In this document: piece after piece, positions 28,873-38,689 of the stretch
Numbering within the stretch: the first letter of the stretch is position 1
How the letters are laid out: each line of letters opens with the position of its first letter
NCBI GenBank assembly: GCA_003142255.1
Contig: PLLO01000011.1
Span: forward strand, 248,001-312,000
Source: Bacteroidales bacterium
GTDB taxonomy: Bacteria; Bacteroidota; Bacteroidia; Bacteroidales; VadinHA17
Direction of reading: 5' to 3'
DNA length: 64,000 bases
The notes under the pieces: model-generated
What the model was told of the DNA's origin: nothing
Database searches by the model: none
Seen by the model: only the letters and a program-made list of their open reading frames with translations
Position numbers and translations under genes: made by a program

Positions 28873-30717
28873 ATGGCCAAAAACTCGCAGGTTATTAAAA
28901 GAGAAGAGGTTGTTATCCGTTTTTCAGGTGATTCTGGTGATGGAATGCAGCTTACAGGCACCTTGTTCTCAGACACCGCAGCCTTGTCCGGCAATGACTT
29001 GTCGACTTTCCCTGATTACCCGGCAGAGATTCGCGCCCCGCAAGGAACAGTAGGCGGCGTATCAGGTTTCCAGATACATATGGGTCATTCTGTAATAAAT
29101 ACTCCCGGTGATTATACAGATGTTCTTGTTGCAATGAATCCTGCAGCTGTAAAGGCAAACGCCAGGTGGGTTAAACCGGGTGGCATTATAATATTCGACA
29201 AGGATAATTTCACCGAAAAAAATATTGAGAAGGCAGGCTATAAAAGCGATCCGGTAATAGAGGAAAAGCTTGATAGCTTTAATGTTATTGATGCTCCTAT
29301 CTCAACAATGGTCAAGGAAGTCCTTAAAGATTTCGGACTCGATCCAAAGTCAGTGCTCAGAACCAAGAATATGTTCGCGCTTGGAATGGTTTACTGGCTC
29401 TTTGACAGGAAGCTTAAATATACAGAGCAATACTTCGATAAGAAATTTGTCAAAAAACCTGAAATAGCCCAGGCAAATAAAGTAGCCCTGAGAGCAGGTT
29501 ATTACTATGCCGAAACTATTGAAGCCCTTAATCCTGTAATTATAATAGAACCGGCACCAATTCAGAAAGGCACCTATAGGAATGTATGCGGAAATGCAGC
29601 TACCGCCTGGGGCCTGCTGGCTGCTGCCGAAAGGGCAGGGCTGAGAACATTTATCGGCTCATACCCGATTACGCCTGCTACCGGCATTCTTGAAGAGATG
29701 GCTGCAAGAAAGGACCTTGGAGTAAAAAGTTTTCAGGCCGAGGACGAAATTGCCGGTATCTGCACCGCTATAGGCGCAAGCTTTGCCGGTTACCTGGCAG
29801 TTACATCGACATCAGGTCCCGGAATGGCCCTTAAATCAGAGGCCATCGGGCTGGCTGTCATGACCGAGCTCCCATTGGTAATCATTAATGTGCAGAGGGC
29901 AGGACCATCAACGGGGCTGCCTACCAAGACAGAACAGTCAGACCTGATGCAGGCATTATTCGGCAGAAATGGAGAATGCCCTGTAGTGGTTATTGCAGCC
30001 AGCACACCTTCCGATTGTTTCAATTTCGCTTTCGAAGCCGCAAAAATCGCGCTGGAGCATATGACACCGGTACTACTGCTCACCGACAGCTATCTTGCAA
30101 ACAGCTCTGAACCATGGAGAATTCCCGTTGTGAAGGATCTCCCGGAAATAAAACCGCCATTTGCCGATATTAATGAGAAACCTTTTCTCCCTTATAAACG
30201 AAATTGTGAAACCCTGGCACGCTCTTGGGCAATTCCCGGTACTCCCGGACTCGAGCACAGAATAGGCGGCCTTGAGAAAACAATGAAGGGTAATGTGTCG
30301 TATATACCTGAAAACCACGAGATGATGGTCAATTTCAGGGCCGAAAAAGTGGCAAAAGTAGCCGACAGGATACCTGACCTGAAAGTGTACGGAGAGGAGT
30401 CAGGCGATCTTCTTGTGGTCGGCTGGGGCGGATCCCGCGGCTACCTGATAACCGCAGTCAATGAATTGCAGGCTGAAGGTCATAAGGTAAGCCTGGCCAA
30501 CTTCAATTATATCTTTCCTTTGCCAAAAAATGTAGCAGAAGTATTCAGTAGATTTAAAAAGATAGTGGTAGCTGAACTCAATCTTGGTCAGTTTGCAGAT
30601 TACCTGAGAATAAAACACCAAGAATTTACTTACAGGCAGATTAACAAGGTGCAGGGAATACCGTTTACGATCAGCGAGATAAAGGAGAAATGTGTTAAAA
30701 TACTGGAGGAAAAATAA
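28873..30717 (+). CDS. korA: 2-oxoglutarate:ferredoxin oxidoreductase, fused gamma-alpha subunit
   Basis: The 614-residue subunit joins a gamma domain (about residues 1-190; FSGDSGDGMQLTGTLF and YPAEIRAPQGTVGG) to an alpha domain (about 230-614; FIGSYPITPATGILEEMA, FQAEDEIAGICTAIGASFAG and TSTSGPGMALKSEA). With KorB it interconverts 2-oxoglutarate plus CoA and succinyl-CoA using ferredoxin, in the cytoplasm. The 2-oxoglutarate assignment follows the usual Bacteroidota KorAB arrangement; a broader 2-oxoacid range cannot be excluded. The korB ATG comes one base after the stop codon. Confidence 0.92.
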   Translation: MAKNSQVIKREEVVIRFSGDSGDGMQLTGTLFSDTAALSGNDLSTFPDYPAEIRAPQGTVGGVSGFQIHMGHSVINTPGDYTDVLVAMNPAAVKANARWVKPGGIIIFDKDNFTEKNIEKAGYKSDPVIEEKLDSFNVIDAPISTMVKEVLKDFGLDPKSVLRTKNMFALGMVYWLFDRKLKYTEQYFDKKFVKKPEIAQANKVALRAGYYYAETIEALNPVIIIEPAPIQKGTYRNVCGNAATAWGLLAAAERAGLRTFIGSYPITPATGILEEMAARKDLGVKSFQAEDEIAGICTAIGASFAGYLAVTSTSGPGMALKSEAIGLAVMTELPLVIINVQRAGPSTGLPTKTEQSDLMQALFGRNGECPVVVIAASTPSDCFNFAFEAAKIALEHMTPVLLLTDSYLANSSEPWRIPVVKDLPEIKPPFADINEKPFLPYKRNCETLARSWAIPGTPGLEHRIGGLEKTMKGNVSYIPENHEMMVNFRAEKVAKVADRIPDLKVYGEESGDLLVVGWGGSRGYLITAVNELQAEGHKVSLANFNYIFPLPKNVAEVFSRFKKIVVAELNLGQFADYLRIKHQEFTYRQINKVQGIPFTISEIKEKCVKILEEK

Positions 30718-30718
30718 A

Positions 30719-31741
30719 ATGGCTGAAACACAATCATTGCAATATACTCCCAGGGATTTTAAAAGCGATCAGGAGGTCAGATGGTGCCCCGGATGCGGCG
30801 ATCATGCAGTACTGAATGCTGTTCAGAAAGCGCTTTCCGAACTTGGAATACCAAAGGAAAAATTTGCCTTTATCTCAGGTATAGGATGCTCTTCACGGTT
30901 CCCTTATTATATGGATACATATGGTTTCCATGGAATTCACGGAAGGGCAGCTGCTATTGCCACAGGAGTTAAAACCGCCAACCCTGATTTGTCGGTCTGG
31001 GAAATTACCGGAGACGGAGATGCGCTGGCAATAGGCGGAAATCATTTTATTCATGCGATCAGACGTAACATTGATATTAACCTTATACTTTTCAATAACG
31101 AGATATACGGTCTGACCAAGGGACAGTATTCACCAACCTCTGAGAAGGGCATCGTGACCAAGACATCTCCATTCGGATCCGTTGAGGAACCGTTTTCAGT
31201 CGGTGAGCTTGTAATCGGTGCCAAAGGCAAATTCTTCGCCAGAACAGTCGATGCAAATGTAGCCCTTTCGACACAGATATACATTGAGGCTGCAAGGCAT
31301 AAGGGGACATCAGTAATTGAGGTTCTTCAAAATTGTGTAATCTTTAATGATGGAGTTCACGAGGTTGTAACAGGCAAAGAGGTAAGAGACGACCGGACAA
31401 TTATCCTGAAACATGGAGAACCAATGATCTTCGGGAAAAATAATGATAAGGGCCTGGTATTGGATGGACTCAAGCTAAAGGTTGTGAAAATCGGCGAAAA
31501 CGGAATAACGAAGGACGACCTTATCATTCATGATGCATATGAAGCTAACCCTGGTATCCAATATATACTGGCAAATATGAAGTATCCGGATTTTCCGGTA
31601 GCGTTGGGGGTTATTCGATCTGTACCCGGCAATACATACGAAACAGATGTGGAGAATCAGATTGAAAAGGTCCGCAAGGATTCCAAAATAAAATGCATGG
31701 ATGACCTGCTTGCAAGCGGGTCGACCTGGAAAGTGGAATAA
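30719..31741 (+). CDS. korB: 2-oxoglutarate:ferredoxin oxidoreductase beta subunit
   Basis: I start at ATG 30719, one base after the korA stop; the longer frame would begin inside korA. The 340-residue subunit binds thiamine diphosphate and a 4Fe-4S cluster. RWCPGCGDHAVL holds the first Cys pair, ISGIGCSSRFPYYM follows, and GDGDALAIGGNHFIHAIRRN with FNNEIYGLTKGQ is the thiamine diphosphate/Mg site. VLQNCVIFND supplies a further Cys. It partners the preceding subunit, and a strong terminator follows directly after the stop. Confidence 0.94.
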   Translation: MAETQSLQYTPRDFKSDQEVRWCPGCGDHAVLNAVQKALSELGIPKEKFAFISGIGCSSRFPYYMDTYGFHGIHGRAAAIATGVKTANPDLSVWEITGDGDALAIGGNHFIHAIRRNIDINLILFNNEIYGLTKGQYSPTSEKGIVTKTSPFGSVEEPFSVGELVIGAKGKFFARTVDANVALSTQIYIEAARHKGTSVIEVLQNCVIFNDGVHEVVTGKEVRDDRTIILKHGEPMIFGKNNDKGLVLDGLKLKVVKIGENGITKDDLIIHDAYEANPGIQYILANMKYPDFPVALGVIRSVPGNTYETDVENQIEKVRKDSKIKCMDDLLASGSTWKVE

Positions 31742-31819: not shown

Positions 31820-34800
31820 ATGGATAATAAAGATCATATCAATCCCGAATATCACAGGTTGCTTCACGAACAGCAGGAGCGGTTGAAGGAACTGGCTTGC
31901 ATAAATCAGACAACATATATACTTAAGGAGGGAAAACCAATTGAAGAAACCCTTCAGCAGATTGCCCTGCTTCTCCCAGCTGCATGGCAGTATCCTGAAT
32001 ACACTAATGCAAGGATAAAATTCCTTGATAAAATTTTTGAAACACCTGAATTTCAGGAAACTACCTGGAAAATGATACAGGAATTCAATACAATTGATGA
32101 CGAAAATGGTACGATTGAGATATTTTATAACAAGGAATTCAGCATCGAAAATGAAGGTCCGTTTCTAAAGGAGGAGAGAGACCTCATTCAAAACATTGCA
32201 AGCCTCATTACCGGATATATAAACAGCTATAAAGCCCGTGATATTATCCGCATGGCTCAGGTTCCGAAGGAGAATGATGACGACATGACAAATGTCTCAA
32301 GCAGGAAGCTGCTACAGAAATTCCTCGAACGGCATAATGCCGAAAGGGACGTTTTTCATGACCTCCAGCCATTCAAGGTAAAAGAGATATTGCTTGTAGC
32401 AAACTTATATGATGCCTATTCCATTGAAGGAGAGGGTAGATTCTCCGACCACATGCTTGGGGAATATTATCAGCTCAGCCTCACTTCCCTGCCAAGAGTA
32501 ACCGGCGTTACAGGAGAGGAAGAAGCCTTTAACAGGCTGAAATCCAGGCATTATGACATGATAATCATAATGGTGGGAGTCCATAAGGAGAGCCCCCTGG
32601 TACTTTGCAGGAAGATTAAGGAAAAATATCCTTACCTGCCGACTTTCCTTCTTCTCAATAACCCGGCTGATGCTCCTTTTGTAAAGAAGCAGAAAGCTCT
32701 TGGTGTACCTTTTGATAATTATTTTGTGTGGACCGGTGAGTCGAAAGTCTTTTTTGCAATGGTAAAACTGCTCGAGGACCAGGTTAACGTCGACAATGAT
32801 ACCAAGAAGGGTCTTACAAGAGTCATTCTTATTGTTGAGGATTCTGCAGAGTATTATTCCAGCTATCTCCCTATACTTTATACTCTTGTCCTGGAACAGA
32901 CAAGAAACCTCATTGAAGACGTTTCAACCGATGAACTTTACAAAGTACTGAAGCTCAGAGCGAGACCAAAAATACTCCTGGCTTCAAACTGGGAGGATTC
33001 AATCTCTATCTACAATAAATACAAGGATAGCTTGCTGTGTGTCATTTCCGATATGCGGTTTCCGAAGAACGGAGAACTCTACGACACTGCCGGTTTTGAA
33101 CTTATTAAGCTTATAAAGAATGATCTTCCGAACCTGCCAACCGTTCTTCAGTCATCTGATTCTGAAAATGCAAAATACGCTTTCACTCTAAAGGCAAATT
33201 TTATTAATAAGAACTCTGAGAGCCTGCTTCAGGACCTGAAATCTTTTATCAACTATTACCTTGGCTTCGGGCATTTCGTATACAGGGACAATAAAGGGCG
33301 GCAGATTGCAGTGGCCAAATCGATGAAGGAGTTTGAAGCTTACCTTGAAACGATACCCGAAGATTCGCTTGCATATCATGCCATGAAAAATCACTTTTCC
33401 CTTTGGCTTATGGCCAGGGGTGAAGTGAAAATTGCCAAGCTGATTAACCCGATAAAAGTCTCTGATTTCAAAAGCCTCAGGGAACTCAGGGAATTCCTTA
33501 TTGATATCATAAGAAAACGCAGGAGGGAGACTAACAAGGGGCGGGTAGTCAACTTTGAAGAATCTGCTTCTATTGACGAAACAAATGTTGTAAGTCTTGC
33601 TGGTGGCTCACTCGGCGGAAAAGGAAGAGGCCTTGCTTTTATCAATACCCTGATTTACAGCTTTGAACTGGGACGGCTACTTTCGGGAATAAACATTAAA
33701 ACACCAATAACTGCCATTATCGGGACAGATGAGTTCGATATGTTTATGGAACGTAACCATTTGTGGGACAGTGTGAAAGGTGAAAAAGACTTTGATGTTC
33801 TTCAAAGGCTGTTTATTGAAGGGAGCCTTAGCTATACCCTTGAGAAAGTATTAAGAGTGTTCCTCAGGCAGATTGTCAAGCCTATTGCAGTACGTTCTTC
33901 CAGCCTTTTCGAAGATTCAATGAGCCAGCCATTCTCGGGGATCTTCGGCACTTATCTGCTGCCTAATAACCACCCTGAATTCGAGATCAGGCTCCGTCAG
34001 TTATCTGATGCAATAAAGCTTGTCTTTGCATCAATTTATTCCAGGAGTTCAAGAACATATTTTGAGGCAATAAACTATAAGGTAGAACAGGAAAAAATGG
34101 CCATCGTTATCCAGGAGGTCGTTGGCAACAGGTTTAACGATACATTTTACCCTCATATCAGCGGCACGGCACAGTCATTTAACTTTTACCCCGTTGCACA
34201 TATGACCCCGCAGGATGGATTTGCTGTCATGGCTGTGGGGCTGGGCCATTATGTGGTTGAAGGTGAAAGGGCCTTCAGATTTTCTCCATCCTACCCGTCA
34301 CTCGATATCGTATCTCATAACGATCTCTATAAAAACTCTCAGGTCCATTTCTATGCTGTTGACCTCAATAAGAAGGATCTGAATCTTCTCGAAGGAGAGA
34401 ATGCAGGGCTCATATCACTGGATATAAGTACGGCAGAGGAACATGGAACTCTTAATCATTCAGCTTCAGTACTGAATACAGATAATGATACAATAGTTCC
34501 CGGCCTTGATGTTCCGGGGCCAAGAGTTATAAATTTTGCCGATATCCTGAAATATAATTACATACCTCTGTCGGCCACCCTAAAGGTAATTCTTGACGTT
34601 GTGGCAGAAGCAACCGGCAACCCTTCAGAGATTGAGTTTGCAGTGGATCTTACTAAGGACACTGAAGGCAATGCTTCATTCTATCTTCTGCAGATTAAAC
34701 CACTTGTCGGCAGCGGTGCCGGCTATGAAATTGATGAGGAAAGCATAAACCATGAAGATCTCATTCTACAATCCGGGAAAAGCATGGGGAATGGAATTAT

Positions 34801-35266
34801 TGACGACATTACCGATATAATATATGTGGAACCGGAAAAATTCGACAACCTGCGTACCACTCAGATGGCTGATGAAATTAATGCCATCAATGATAAAATG
34901 CTCAAGGCAAATTCACGGTATGTACTTATTGGTCCTGGAAGGTGGGGAACAAAGGACAGGTTCCTCGGAATTCCGGTTGCCTGGCCACAGATTTCAAATG
35001 CAAAGGTAATTGTAGAAGTCGATCTTCCTGATTTCCATCTTGACGCCTCACTTGGTTCACATTTCTTCCACAACGTTACCTCAATGAATGTAGGTTATTT
35101 TTCGATAAACCAGGGAAGCAATGACGGGAGAATTGACTGGGATAAGCTTGCCGGCCAGAAAGTTATTGAAACCGGAAAATTCTTTCGGCATATAAGGTTT
35201 GAGAAACCCCTTACCATCCGCATGGATGGTAAGAAGGGAATAGCTGTAATAACAATGAATAAGTAA
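31820..35266 (+). CDS. GAF-like/receiver/PEP-synthase-type ATP-binding fusion protein, first of a tandem pair
   Basis: ATG 31820 gives 1148 residues (a TTG nine bases earlier is less likely). Residues ~1-145 resemble a GAF sensor domain (LLPAAWQYPEYTNARI). About 185-310 is a degenerate receiver with no phospho-Asp (YDMIIIMVGV). About 330-490 is a second receiver that keeps VEDS (339-342), Asp411 in VISDMRF and Lys464. About 590-965 is the ATP-binding domain of PEP synthase/pyruvate phosphate dikinase: GGSLGGKGRGLAF (from 594), VRSSSLFED (Arg692) and LLQIKPL (Gln958). The phosphohistidine and PEP domains are absent. They are replaced by a ~180-residue unnamed domain with GPGRWGT (1038-1044) and GSHFFHN (His1081, His1084). 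A kinase or phosphotransferase controlled by the receiver is inferred; the real reaction is unknown. Confidence 0.8.
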   Translation: MDNKDHINPEYHRLLHEQQERLKELACINQTTYILKEGKPIEETLQQIALLLPAAWQYPEYTNARIKFLDKIFETPEFQETTWKMIQEFNTIDDENGTIEIFYNKEFSIENEGPFLKEERDLIQNIASLITGYINSYKARDIIRMAQVPKENDDDMTNVSSRKLLQKFLERHNAERDVFHDLQPFKVKEILLVANLYDAYSIEGEGRFSDHMLGEYYQLSLTSLPRVTGVTGEEEAFNRLKSRHYDMIIIMVGVHKESPLVLCRKIKEKYPYLPTFLLLNNPADAPFVKKQKALGVPFDNYFVWTGESKVFFAMVKLLEDQVNVDNDTKKGLTRVILIVEDSAEYYSSYLPILYTLVLEQTRNLIEDVSTDELYKVLKLRARPKILLASNWEDSISIYNKYKDSLLCVISDMRFPKNGELYDTAGFELIKLIKNDLPNLPTVLQSSDSENAKYAFTLKANFINKNSESLLQDLKSFINYYLGFGHFVYRDNKGRQIAVAKSMKEFEAYLETIPEDSLAYHAMKNHFSLWLMARGEVKIAKLINPIKVSDFKSLRELREFLIDIIRKRRRETNKGRVVNFEESASIDETNVVSLAGGSLGGKGRGLAFINTLIYSFELGRLLSGINIKTPITAIIGTDEFDMFMERNHLWDSVKGEKDFDVLQRLFIEGSLSYTLEKVLRVFLRQIVKPIAVRSSSLFEDSMSQPFSGIFGTYLLPNNHPEFEIRLRQLSDAIKLVFASIYSRSSRTYFEAINYKVEQEKMAIVIQEVVGNRFNDTFYPHISGTAQSFNFYPVAHMTPQDGFAVMAVGLGHYVVEGERAFRFSPSYPSLDIVSHNDLYKNSQVHFYAVDLNKKDLNLLEGENAGLISLDISTAEEHGTLNHSASVLNTDNDTIVPGLDVPGPRVINFADILKYNYIPLSATLKVILDVVAEATGNPSEIEFAVDLTKDTEGNASFYLLQIKPLVGSGAGYEIDEESINHEDLILQSGKSMGNGIIDDITDIIYVEPEKFDNLRTTQMADEINAINDKMLKANSRYVLIGPGRWGTKDRFLGIPVAWPQISNAKVIVEVDLPDFHLDASLGSHFFHNVTSMNVGYFSINQGSNDGRIDWDKLAGQKVIETGKFFRHIRFEKPLTIRMDGKKGIAVITMNK

Positions 35267-35278
35267 ATATACCTGACC

Positions 35279-38257
35279 ATGACCATCATAGACGGTATTC
35301 TTGATCTTCAGAAATATGATTTTACGGATACCTCCTTTGATCTGCTGATGCAGAAACGAATACACCGTGTGCTGGTAATTTGCAGTAATTATGATAATTA
35401 CATGCTCGAGGAAGACGGAAGGATCGATGAACAGATTTTTAATGAATATGTGTCACTTAACCTGAGATATCCCCCGGTATTCATTCAGACAGACAATGCT
35501 GAGGATGCCTTCAGAATTCTGGCAGAAGGCAATGTCGACCTCGTCATTTCAATGCTCTCCCTCAGGGGAACCGATGTTTTTGCACTTGCAAAAAAGATCA
35601 AGACCAATTATGAACATATTCCCATCGTTGTCCTCACTTATTTTTCCCGCGAAGTATCCCTGAGGCTTGAGGGTGAAGATCTCAGCGCAATCGATTATGT
35701 TTTCTGCTGGCTTGGCGATGCATCCCTGATCCTTGCTATAATCAAGTTGATCGAGGATAAAATGAATGCTGATTATGATATTGAAAATATTGGAGTTCAG
35801 GCCATAATTCTTGTCGAAAACTCTATCAGGTATATCTCGTCATACCTTCCCAATATCTACAGGATTGTTCTTTTGCAGTCGCTAGATTTTCAGCGTGAAG
35901 CCCTGAATGAGCACCAAAGGATGCTTAAAATGAGGGGCAGACCCAAAATTTTGCTGGCAAATAACTTCAATGATGCCGAAGCTCTTTATAAAAAATATAA
36001 GTATAATGTGCTCGGAATAATATCCGATATAAGCTATAAAAGAGACAATATTCCTGATGAGAATGCAGGCTTTGAGCTGTGCAAGGTTGTCATGGCTGAT
36101 GATGATAAAGTACCCTTCCTGCTTCAATCCTCAAATCTTGATCATAAAAAGAGGGCTGAGGAAATGGGTGCGGGATTTATCCATAAATACTCCAAATCCC
36201 TTTCACTGGAGCTGAGGAATTATATAATTCAGAACCTTGCCTTCGGTCCGTTTGTGTTCAGAAACCCTGACACGCTCGAGCCTATCGCTATTGCGACAGA
36301 CCTTCAGGCTCTTCAGCAGAAGATACTGACAGTTCCGGACAACTCCCTTGAATACCATGCAACCCGGAATCAATTTTCAAAATGGCTGAATGCCAGGGCA
36401 CTGTTTCCCGTTGCCCAGATGTTCAAGTACATCAGGAAAGAGGATTTTGAAACTATGGATGAGATGAGGCGGTTCCTGTATGTCGCCATCTCAAGCTTCA
36501 GACTCGGTAAAGGAAGGGGAGTCATTGCCAAATTCGATAAAATGAGCTTTGATGAGTACCAGGTATTTTCGAGGATTGGCGAAGGATCAATTGGCGGCAA
36601 AGCCAGGGGACTTGCTTTCATAAACAGGATAATAAAGAACTACAAGCTATTCAATAAATTCCCCGATGTCCTTATTACAATTCCCAGGACTGTAGTCCTG
36701 AGCACTGATATCTTCGACGAATTCATGGATCACAATAACCTTTATTCGGTTGCCATGTCGGACCTTCCCGACGAGGATATCCTTAACCGTTTCATTAATG
36801 CTGAACTCCCGGGACGCGTTTACCAGGACTTCTATGCTTTTCTTGCCGTTTCAAGAAATCATCCGATTGCCGTAAGGTCTTCAAGTAAATTGGAAGATTC
36901 ACATTATCAGCCTTTTGCGGGAGTATATTCGACATACATGATCCCCAGGCTTGCCGACAACCACATAATGGTGAAAGCTTTGGCCGATGCAATTAAAGAA
37001 GTTTATGCGTCGGTATATTACAAAGCCAGCAAGGCTTATATGACTGCTACAGCAAACGTTATCGATGAGGAGAAAATGGGAATAATCCTTCAGGAAATTT
37101 GCGGTAACCGTCATGGAGATATTTTTTACCCTACGCTTTCAGGTGTTGCCAGATCGATCAATTACTATCCTATAGGTTCTGAAAAAGCTGAAGACGGCAT
37201 TGCAAACGTAGCTTTTGGCCTTGGAAAGCTGATCGTCGAAGGAGGCATGTCGCTTCGCTTCTGTCCGAAAATGCCAAAGAAGATCCTTCAGCTTTCATCG
37301 CCCGAAGCTGCCCTCCGCGATACGCAGAAGGACTTCAGGGCCCTTGACCTGAATTTCAGCAGCTTTGTCCCGTCGACAGACGATGGTGTAAATATTCTCA
37401 GGATAGATATCAAGGATGCAAACAACGATGGTGCGATGAAATACCTTGCTTCAACGTACGATCGTACTAATAATGTGATTCGCGACGGGATCATTCAGAA
37501 TGGCAAGAGAATCATCACCTTCTCGGGCATTCTCCAGTACAAGACTTTCCCATTGGCTGACATACTTTCAACTCTCCTGGAGGTTGGACAGAAGGAAATG
37601 AATAACCCGATTGAGATTGAATTTGCAGCCAACCTCGAGACTCCTGCAGGAACTCCCAAGGTCTTTAACTTCCTTCAGATAAGGCCGATAGTTTACTCAG
37701 ATGAAACTTATAATATTAACCTCGATAACATCAGGAAAGAGCAAACAATTATTTTTTCAGATTCTGCCCTTGGCCATGGATTGTTCAAAGGCATTATGGA
37801 TCTTGTCTATGTCAAACCGGAGTCATTTAATGCTGCGCAAAATAAGAATGTCGCCATGGTGATAGAGAAAATAAATTCTTTATTTGTGAAGCAGTCATTG
37901 GGATACGTGCTTATTGGCCCCGGAAGATGGGGATCTACGGATCCCTGGCTCGGCATCCCTGTGAAATGGCAGCAGATATCGGCGGCAAGGATAATTGTCG
38001 AATCGGGACTGAAAAACTACCGCATTGACCCAAGCCAGGGTACTCATTTCTTCCAGAACCTCACATCATTCAGAGTAGGATATTTCACAATAAATCCTTT
38101 TATAAACGAAGGCTATTACGATGTGGATTTTCTGAATGGGATGAAAATTGTGTATGAAGATGAATTTATAAGGCATATCCGTTTTGACAAGCCTCTCGAG
38201 ATAATGATAGACGGGAAGAGGCATAAAGGAGCAATAATGAAACCGGATCAGCATTAA
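35279..38257 (+). CDS. Receiver/PEP-synthase-type ATP-binding fusion protein, second of a tandem pair
   Basis: This 992-residue paralog begins 12 bases after the first. It lacks the GAF-like region. A degenerate receiver (about 20-150; VDLVISMLSLRG, no phospho-Asp) is followed by a second one (about 170-330) that has VENS instead of VEDS (179-182), Asp250 in IISDIS, and a Lys in FIHKYSKS. The ATP-binding domain (about 430-800) keeps GSIGGKARGLAF (436-447), VRSSSKLED (Arg533) and FLQIRPI. The C-terminal unnamed domain has GPGRWGS (880-886) and GTHFFQN (His923). Shared motifs outside the ATP site point to one conserved but undefined reaction. The tandem arrangement suggests a hetero-oligomer or two receivers with different inputs. 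Confidence 0.8.
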   Translation: MTIIDGILDLQKYDFTDTSFDLLMQKRIHRVLVICSNYDNYMLEEDGRIDEQIFNEYVSLNLRYPPVFIQTDNAEDAFRILAEGNVDLVISMLSLRGTDVFALAKKIKTNYEHIPIVVLTYFSREVSLRLEGEDLSAIDYVFCWLGDASLILAIIKLIEDKMNADYDIENIGVQAIILVENSIRYISSYLPNIYRIVLLQSLDFQREALNEHQRMLKMRGRPKILLANNFNDAEALYKKYKYNVLGIISDISYKRDNIPDENAGFELCKVVMADDDKVPFLLQSSNLDHKKRAEEMGAGFIHKYSKSLSLELRNYIIQNLAFGPFVFRNPDTLEPIAIATDLQALQQKILTVPDNSLEYHATRNQFSKWLNARALFPVAQMFKYIRKEDFETMDEMRRFLYVAISSFRLGKGRGVIAKFDKMSFDEYQVFSRIGEGSIGGKARGLAFINRIIKNYKLFNKFPDVLITIPRTVVLSTDIFDEFMDHNNLYSVAMSDLPDEDILNRFINAELPGRVYQDFYAFLAVSRNHPIAVRSSSKLEDSHYQPFAGVYSTYMIPRLADNHIMVKALADAIKEVYASVYYKASKAYMTATANVIDEEKMGIILQEICGNRHGDIFYPTLSGVARSINYYPIGSEKAEDGIANVAFGLGKLIVEGGMSLRFCPKMPKKILQLSSPEAALRDTQKDFRALDLNFSSFVPSTDDGVNILRIDIKDANNDGAMKYLASTYDRTNNVIRDGIIQNGKRIITFSGILQYKTFPLADILSTLLEVGQKEMNNPIEIEFAANLETPAGTPKVFNFLQIRPIVYSDETYNINLDNIRKEQTIIFSDSALGHGLFKGIMDLVYVKPESFNAAQNKNVAMVIEKINSLFVKQSLGYVLIGPGRWGSTDPWLGIPVKWQQISAARIIVESGLKNYRIDPSQGTHFFQNLTSFRVGYFTINPFINEGYYDVDFLNGMKIVYEDEFIRHIRFDKPLEIMIDGKRHKGAIMKPDQH

Positions 38258-38284: not shown

Positions 38285-38689
38285 ATGGAAACAGCAGCAA
38301 CAGTTTATAAGGGCGATCTTAGAACCGAAATAACTCACCTCCGCTCCGGAAGCGTGATAATCACAGATGCTCCGGTCGACAACAAGGGCAAGGGGGAGAA
38401 TTTCTCACCCACCGATCTGGTAGCTTCAGCTCTGGGGAGTTGTATATTTACCATCATGGGAATTGCCGCCAGAGAGCATGGATTCTCTATTGAAGGAACA
38501 ACCTGCAAAATAACGAAGATCATGACTGAAAGCCCCAGGAAGATAGGGGAGATTAAGATTGATTTTGATTTTACAGGACATGAATACAGCGCCAAGCAGA
38601 GGAAAATCCTTGAATATTGTGTTAAAACATGCCCGGTGGCATTAACGCTTAATGAATCTGTATTTCAGAACGTTACACTGCATTTTTAA
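38285..38689 (+). CDS. OsmC-family peroxiredoxin-like protein
   Basis: The 134-residue protein has both conserved OsmC cysteines: GSCIFTIMGIAAREHG (about residue 55) and the C-terminal KTCPVALTL. NFSPTDLVASALGSC and the helix and strand order fit the YhfA/OsmC group. Such proteins reduce organic hydroperoxides as homodimers. The gene is 27 bases downstream of the large ATP-binding protein and co-directional. Its stop overlaps the convergent fabD stop by 4 bases, so it ends that unit. Confidence 0.88.
   Translation: METAATVYKGDLRTEITHLRSGSVIITDAPVDNKGKGENFSPTDLVASALGSCIFTIMGIAAREHGFSIEGTTCKITKIMTESPRKIGEIKIDFDFTGHEYSAKQRKILEYCVKTCPVALTLNESVFQNVTLHF

Follow-up and report, generated by a model that had tools for sequence, protein, structure and literature searches.

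Receiver-bearing proteins of a Bacteroidales bacterium with a dikinase-type ATP-binding domain and a putative phosphohistidine domain, and the linkage of their family to glutamate dehydrogenase genes

In phosphoenolpyruvate (PEP) synthase, pyruvate phosphate dikinase (PPDK) and rifampin phosphotransferase (RPH), an ATP domain phosphorylates a histidine on a swivelling domain, and the latter then delivers the phosphoryl group to an acceptor site. RPH has the ATP and His domains without a PEP barrel, and a rifampin-binding domain is located between them. Two adjacent genes in a stretch of 64,000 nucleotides from a Bacteroidales bacterium (contig PLLO01000011.1, positions 248,001 to 312,000; the window) encode the proteins P0001 and P0002, in which receiver (REC) domains precede the ATP-binding domain known from PEP synthase and PPDK. 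This REC-PPDK architecture is already known and is named in passing as 'Bacteroides-like' (PMC5847659); the passages of that paper that mention it give no C-terminal domain, partner or function. New here are the linkage of the family to glutamate dehydrogenase (GDH) genes and the pairing of its architectures with GDH subtypes. The open-licence papers searched describe no function of the family, no identity of the C-terminal domain and no link to GDH, in agreement with a preliminary description of the two proteins that knew of no defined function. The chances are about even that these proteins are signal-gated ATP-to-phosphohistidine transferases that modify or control GDH.

P0001 (31820-35266, 1148 residues from an ATG; a TTG three codons upstream is a further possible start) and P0002 (35279-38257, 992 residues) are open reading frame calls on the + strand, separated by a gap of 12 bases. 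Positions, lengths and the residue numbers Asp411/Asp250 and His1081/His923 had been given correctly in the preliminary description. The two chains share 37% identity over 980 columns of a pairwise alignment and, judged from their sequences, are paralogs.

P0001 (31820..35266) consists of a sensor-like N-terminus, REC1, REC2, a DUF5752-like linker, the PPDK_N domain and a C-terminal phosphohistidine-like domain. The sensor-like domain (residues 1-150, 31820..32269) had been called GAF-like. Although no GAF model of Pfam hits it at E up to 1, the domain shares homology with the N-terminal part of another family architecture, which is fused to a nucleotidyltransferase domain (L028, 25% identity, E 2e-19; L numbers denote loci of relatives). 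REC1 (about residues 187-324, 32378..32791) is degenerate and was placed via the alignment to P0002. REC2 (about residues 332-482, 32813..33265) is intact, with phospho-Asp411 at 33050-33052 and a sub-threshold match to Pfam Response_reg (375-459). The linker (residues 499-573, 33314..33538) scores 24.3 bits against DUF5752 (cut-off 23). PPDK_N (residues 597-965, 33608..34714, E 3.6e-32) is followed by the C-terminal domain (about residues 975-1148, 34742..35263) with His1081 at 35060-35062; its fold is assigned from the model of P0002.

P0002 (35279..38257) begins with the degenerate REC1 (about residues 28-165, 35360..35773), which Pfam recognizes as Response_reg (70-142, 36.8 bits, cut-off 30.2). 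REC2 (about residues 172-322, 35792..36244) carries phospho-Asp250 at 36026-36028, and its model (173-322) aligns to Spo0F (6ifh) with a VIA-align Z of 14.8. After a linker follow PPDK_N (residues 437-812, 36587..37714, E 2.3e-33), which aligns to the RPH ATP domain (5hv6) with Z 23.0, and the C-terminal domain (residues 815-992, 37721..38254) with His923 at 38045-38047. The PEP-synthase/PPDK nucleotide domain is thus found in both proteins (PF01326, 112.4 bits in P0001 and 116.3 bits in P0002, cut-off 27). No PEP/pyruvate barrel was matched by Pfam in either protein at E up to 1, nor was a HisKA-type or HATPase_c domain, and in the full-length model the P0002 chain stops with the His-type domain. 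Among the NCBIfam profiles, RIF_Ptrans_rph reaches 20.4 bits (P0002) and 10.9 bits (P0001) against a cut-off of 999; PigC/RedH ligases also turn up, far under cut-off.

Residue conservation was inspected in two sets of relatives. The first comprises 25 rows picked by similarity to P0002 alone, with one match containing an in-frame stop (L013) left out. In all 25 rows GGK 439-441, R533, E539-D540, Q605, E781, Q800, GRWG 882-885, G921, H923, F924 and F925 (P0002 numbering) are invariant. The second set has 70 rows, 15 of which are P0001-like with identities near 35%. Here GGK, R533, E539-D540, E781, Q800 and His923 are invariant as well (70/70), although for GGK and the His this is partly built in because the rows were selected by peptide patterns that include G[TS]HFF, the P0001-like rows by GGK and G[TS]HF. 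The Arg of the LQxRP motif is replaced by Lys in P0001 alone in the smaller set and in 15 of the 70 rows of the larger one. In REC2, residues E180, D250, S284 and K303 are present in all 20 receiver-bearing rows of the smaller set and in 70/70 of the larger, and D181 is Asp in 19/20 and 67/70, respectively; P0002 of the window has Asn181 (35819-35821). The phospho-Asp position of REC1 is occupied by M92 in P0002 and by Met in 64 of the 70 aligned members, so that a degenerate REC1 beside a REC2 with its phospho-Asp, as described before, holds for most of the aligned members. Since these residues are invariant across relatives, the ATP site and REC2 are, on the evidence of the alignments, under strong selection. 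Loss of the ATP-site residues, which would have spoken against the earlier view, is the opposite of what the alignments contain. The invariant His of the HFF motif had been considered as a phosphoryl acceptor, and it is a good candidate for this role.

The preliminary description assumed that both the PEP barrel and a swivelling phosphohistidine domain are absent. The barrel is indeed missing according to Pfam, but the second statement is probably wrong. From the models, the C-terminal domain is probably a highly divergent swivelling phosphohistidine domain, because His domains of RPH and PPDK head the structural matches and the ATP and C-terminal domains together align in order with the known enzymes. 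The isolated C-terminal domain of P0002 was modelled with a predicted local distance difference test score (pLDDT) of 88.2 and a predicted template modelling score (pTM) of 0.88; the full-length model has a pLDDT of 86.4 and a pTM of 0.79. When the Foldseek list was re-scored with VIA-align, the isolated domain matched the RPH His domain best (5fbu, Z 7.0; 5fbt, Z 6.8), followed by the C-terminal part of Bacillus stearothermophilus pyruvate kinase (2e28, Z 6.4), which we take to be a PEP-utilizer-like extra domain, and the phosphoryl-carrier domains of PPDK (2fm4, Z 6.4; 5lu4, Z 6.0). Taken alone, these matches are only suggestive. In the full model, the ATP and C-terminal domains were also compared as one unit, which gave in-order alignments with PEP synthase 2ols (Z 25.1, 359 residues, 418-988 to 4-466), PPDK 1dik (Z 17.6, 344 residues, 429-989 to 7-510) and RPH 5hv2 (Z 21.3, 419-989 to 6-867). 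The order of elements in the model (strand, helix, strand, short helix, strand, loop with the His, helix, strand) fits the pattern of the PPDK sequences, by eye only.

Several observations speak against this assignment. The models are least certain in the His loop (pLDDT 64-71 when the domain was modelled alone, 61-65 at full length), and for this reason the fold is assigned with good rather than high confidence. The helix after the His begins at residue 925 in the former model and at 923 in the latter. A Z of 7 lies in the range that VIA-align calls common, and unrelated rows reach 5.5. Several RPH and PPDK rows (5hv6, 5fbs, 5lu4, 5jvl) span the ATP domain only, and Foldseek gave no match at E<=0.001 for the isolated C-terminal model. 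Sequence profiles are negative, too. The C-terminal domain (105 sequences) aligned to 26 PEP-utilizer sequences has an hhalign probability of 0.3%; four of 30 loci without the motif (L037, L050, L063, L065) had been left out of the latter set. PF00391 is absent among the Pfam matches of 94 C-terminal domains at E up to 10, a scan in which the HMMER filters drop most weak matches and which returned 20 scattered weak families, each in at most two members. A search of PDB sequences with the C-terminal profile yielded five weak matches, none of them to a phosphohistidine domain. Thus, the profile check proposed earlier is negative at the sequence level whereas structural comparison points to a phosphohistidine domain.

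The link to GDH is strong and had escaped the preliminary description. In a phylum sample, 25 of 148 genomes, including the source genome, contain 44 strong matches to the family (E<1e-30; receiver-only matches were dropped and the copy with the in-frame stop was kept). A GDH gene is found within 5 kb of 34 of these 44 family genes (each tandem copy within a cluster counts as one), always on the same strand (34/34). Conversely, 38 of 53 GDH genes, defined as PF00208 rows over 200 bits that were not checked individually, with lower rows dropped, have a family gene within 5 kb. The linkage occurs in 21 of the 25 genomes, and the identity of GDH is supported by Pfam or NCBIfam on examples. As a control, classical genes with a PEP-utilizers domain from the same 25 genomes were inspected; 0 of 50 are within 5 kb of a GDH gene.

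In the order of the window, the family is present in 103 of 119 genomes at E<=1e-40. At least 52 of 150 listed family cores have a GDH gene, out of 150 listed, at a distance of up to 6 kb, and the linked cores are distributed over at least 37 of the 103 genomes. Of the linked pairs, 29 are divergent, and in 20 GDH is downstream on the same strand. Among 80 loci from named genomes, both flanks of which are present in 70, GDH is the immediate neighbour in 20 and is found within two genes in 27. A tandem pair of family genes is bracketed by two GDH genes in L100, L103 and L104.

The family comprises three groups, namely REC-REC-core (about 1000 residues; REC form), the core alone (about 580 residues; short form) and a longer receiver-less group (778-1070 residues), with part of its members starting with a GAF-like region and part ending in a nucleotidyltransferase domain. 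The latter domain (PF01909) is present in L028 and L159, and none was found in L158. One P0001-like protein (L083) has an additional PAS domain. The contig scan yielded at least 80 loci, from Bacteroidales, Lutibacter and metagenome-assembled genomes labelled Chlorobiota among others; named relatives include Bacteroides, Prevotella and Parabacteroides. A P0001-like gene precedes a P0002-like gene by at most 70 bases in 14 of the 80 loci and is further off in two, and one more tandem locus (L068) was missed by the motif search. Within the genus of the window the family is not universal, since G259, a genome of this genus that is 98% complete, has GDH and no family match. L013 (G074:C13:6170-9091) is a REC-form copy with one in-frame TAA and is possibly a decaying gene or an assembly error.

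The architectures differ in the GDH next to them. Twenty regions with 30 family genes were examined, and 25 of these genes have a GDH gene within 6 kb. The GDH nearest to the REC form is NADP-type in 9 of 10 cases. For the short form, the sensor/nucleotidyltransferase form and one related form (L158), it is archaeal-type in 13 of 15. Both exceptions among the short and nucleotidyltransferase forms are in L148, which holds both GDH types, and the REC-form exception (L162) is 64 bp from one GDH type and 69 bp from the other. Subtypes were assigned by the nearer of two reference GDHs, 'archaeal-type' meaning that the best NCBIfam score is to GdhA_Arch (490 and 565, below the cut-off of 750); the architecture labels are based on regular expressions and leave some members as 'other'. 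A shared pathway alone would not predict such a pairing, which therefore appears to point to a protein partnership. The core-nucleotidyltransferase fusions (L028:514-3699 and L159:7843-10581) adjoin archaeal-type GDH (the gene of L028 was seen in L155), and the fused form could adenylylate or uridylylate its target.

Other counts from the genomes are less favourable to a role in GDH control, as is the separate counting of tandem copies. In 66 of the 103 order genomes with the family, there is no pair within 6 kb among the matches listed. Five genomes with the family lack GDH at E<=1e-40. Since GDH is found in 98 of the 103 genomes with the family and also in 12 of the 16 without it, co-occurrence alone says little. 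The two NADP-type GDH genes of the source genome are one gene apart from each other and on a different contig than P0001 and P0002. Finally, the linkage indicates a shared role, which is not the same as phosphorylation of GDH.

The following mechanism is consistent with these data. P0001 and P0002 would represent the ATP-using half of PEP synthase or PPDK, freed of the PEP barrel and placed under receiver control. PPDK_N would bind ATP and phosphorylate His923 or His1081 of the C-terminal swivelling domain. A histidine kinase or a small donor would phosphorylate REC2, which may in turn switch this reaction on or off, and the N-terminal sensor of P0001 may do so as well. The receivers and the GAF-like and PAS domains, all of them N-terminal, have the appearance of inputs. 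Because the ATP and His halves appear to be present and a receiving domain is absent, the acceptor to which the phosphohistidine domain hands the phosphoryl group is presumably not part of the chain. Gene linkage and subtype pairing make GDH, or a partner of GDH, the best candidate. Ammonia assimilation at the 2-oxoglutarate/glutamate node would thereby be tuned by signals. This scheme predicts that the His is autophosphorylated, that REC2 gates the reaction and that GDH accepts the phosphoryl group. The 'unknown chemistry' of the preliminary description narrows to a testable claim, namely ATP-dependent phosphorylation of His923/His1081 and a signal-gated action on GDH.

A bolder version is more doubtful and is put forward tentatively. 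The family could represent signal-controlled protein phosphotransferases of a new class, in which an ATP domain and a phosphohistidine domain work as a pair of their own and each form covalently modifies its own GDH subtype. The pair would be driven by receivers or by GAF-like or PAS sensors, or be coupled to a nucleotidyltransferase.

Four other explanations have to be weighed against signal-gated control of GDH. The core might phosphorylate or ligate a small molecule of the 2-oxoglutarate/glutamate/ammonia node, at a site contributed by the linker or receiver region, and the GDH link would then reflect a shared pathway. Relatives do use small acceptors, namely rifampin in RPH and the substrates of the PigC/RedH ligases, the latter being far below cut-off in the profiles. 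A 2-oxoacid oxidoreductase is encoded among the neighbours, and in L094 there is a flavin/iron-sulphur oxidoreductase pair. The short form, however, consists of hardly more than the ATP and His domains and lacks a third domain that could take up a substrate. Since each form goes together with one GDH subtype, a protein partner is also more plausible than a common metabolite. A small-molecule acceptor is regarded as unlikely.

Slightly less likely still is a transfer of the phosphoryl group to REC2 of the same or the partner protein, by which the family would become a dikinase-type histidine kinase and a new entry to two-component signalling. REC2 is fully conserved and on the same chain, and P0001 (GAF-like N-terminus) and L083 (PAS) carry sensor modules, as sensor kinases do. 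The short and nucleotidyltransferase forms, on the other hand, retain the GDH link along with the ATP and His domains although no receiver is seen in them, so the receiver looks like an input and not like a universal acceptor. A receiver Asp could thus accept the group in the REC form but not in receiver-less members. Moreover, ordinary histidine kinases are encoded beside the REC form in three clusters.

It is improbable that the proteins are ATP-sensing scaffolds, whose nucleotide and receiver state would alter GDH contacts without phosphotransfer. Such a role would fit the large distance of the C-terminal domain from known phosphohistidine sequences and the Arg to Lys exchange in the LQxRP motif of P0001-like members (15/70 rows), but neither the His nor any other of the ATP-site residues varies in the two alignments (25/25 and 70/70), which is hardly expected of a non-catalytic protein. 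Ordinary PEP synthase or PPDK isoenzymes with extra regulation, to which only the PPDK_N domain would point, are rejected as extremely unlikely, with the barrel missing, the chain ending after the His-type domain, a separate classical PPDK (915 residues) encoded in the source genome and classical PEP-utilizer genes found near GDH in 0 of 50 cases.

In the window, P0001 is directly preceded by two genes named korA and korB in the preliminary description (28873..31741; 28873-30717 and 30692-31741, + strand), which are 2-oxoacid:acceptor oxidoreductase subunits by profiles. The position right after korAB is as described. The beta subunit scores under its NCBIfam cut-offs, and for this reason 2-oxoglutarate is not established as the substrate. 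Genes of the korAB type are within two genes of the family in only 8 of the 80 loci, and korAB was rejected as the defining partner. An OsmC-family gene (38285..38689, + strand) starts 27 bases downstream of P0002 and is a probable operon member. As these genes are adjacent on the + strand with short gaps (12 and 27 bases), korA, korB, P0001, P0002 and the OsmC-family gene likely form a five-gene operon.

The gene neighbourhoods of relatives, which were inspected for region L158 in part and for L157 to a minor extent, show further features. Histidine kinase genes (HisKA_3, HATPase_c, PAS), for which a check of the neighbourhoods had been proposed, are located inside clusters of GDH and the REC form at L160:10788-12858, L161:7322-9394 and L163:9953-12872. 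LuxR-type regulator genes were scanned in L160 and L163, and a gene of the same cluster was seen in L161. Between the P0001-like and P0002-like genes of L094, with GDH upstream, lies an oxidoreductase pair (L094:5910-8597) that has NAD/FAD as well as iron-sulphur domains and is presumably NfnA/GltD-like. The short and nucleotidyltransferase forms in L148, L149, L150, L151, L154, L155 and L156 are flanked by what we take, from the protein starts, to be histidine-biosynthesis-like operon genes. In L162:3-2173 the peptide VSIHAPVRGRD is repeated in overlapping frames and resembles a translated CRISPR array.

If the family controls GDH, a missing regulator of a main ammonia-assimilating step in these bacteria is named. 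Reversible inactivation of GDH in Bacteroides was reportedly described by Yamamoto, Saito and Ishimoto in 1987. A new class of phosphotransferase acting on GDH subtypes, if real, could explain this inactivation and would be a GDH-centred counterpart of the modification cascade of glutamine synthetase. It would also mean that the phosphotransfer chemistry of PEP synthase is re-used, with half of a metabolic dikinase turned into a signalling output. We know of no GDH or glutamine-synthetase system in which a phosphoryl group passes from ATP to a phosphohistidine without a PEP barrel under receiver control.

With PEP synthase and PPDK (2ols, 1dik), the proteins share PPDK_N with its active-site residues kept, followed by a probable swivelling phosphohistidine fold. 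P0001 and P0002 differ from these enzymes in lacking the PEP/pyruvate barrel and in having N-terminal receivers. Compared to PPDK, the His domain is unrecognisable by sequence, has a conserved GxGRWG (25/25) and carries G(T/S)HFF where PPDK has its TSH motif. The rifampin phosphotransferase RPH-Lm (5fbu, 5hv1) is the best structural match of both the ATP and the His parts, whereas P0001 and P0002 have nothing between these domains and are preceded by receivers. In function, the nearest analogy is the control of glutamine synthetase by GlnE and GlnD, in which an enzyme of nitrogen assimilation is under signal-dependent covalent control; one form of the family likewise carries a nucleotidyltransferase domain. 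Unlike GlnE and GlnD, the family has as its core an ATP domain and a phosphohistidine-like domain, and its putative target is GDH.

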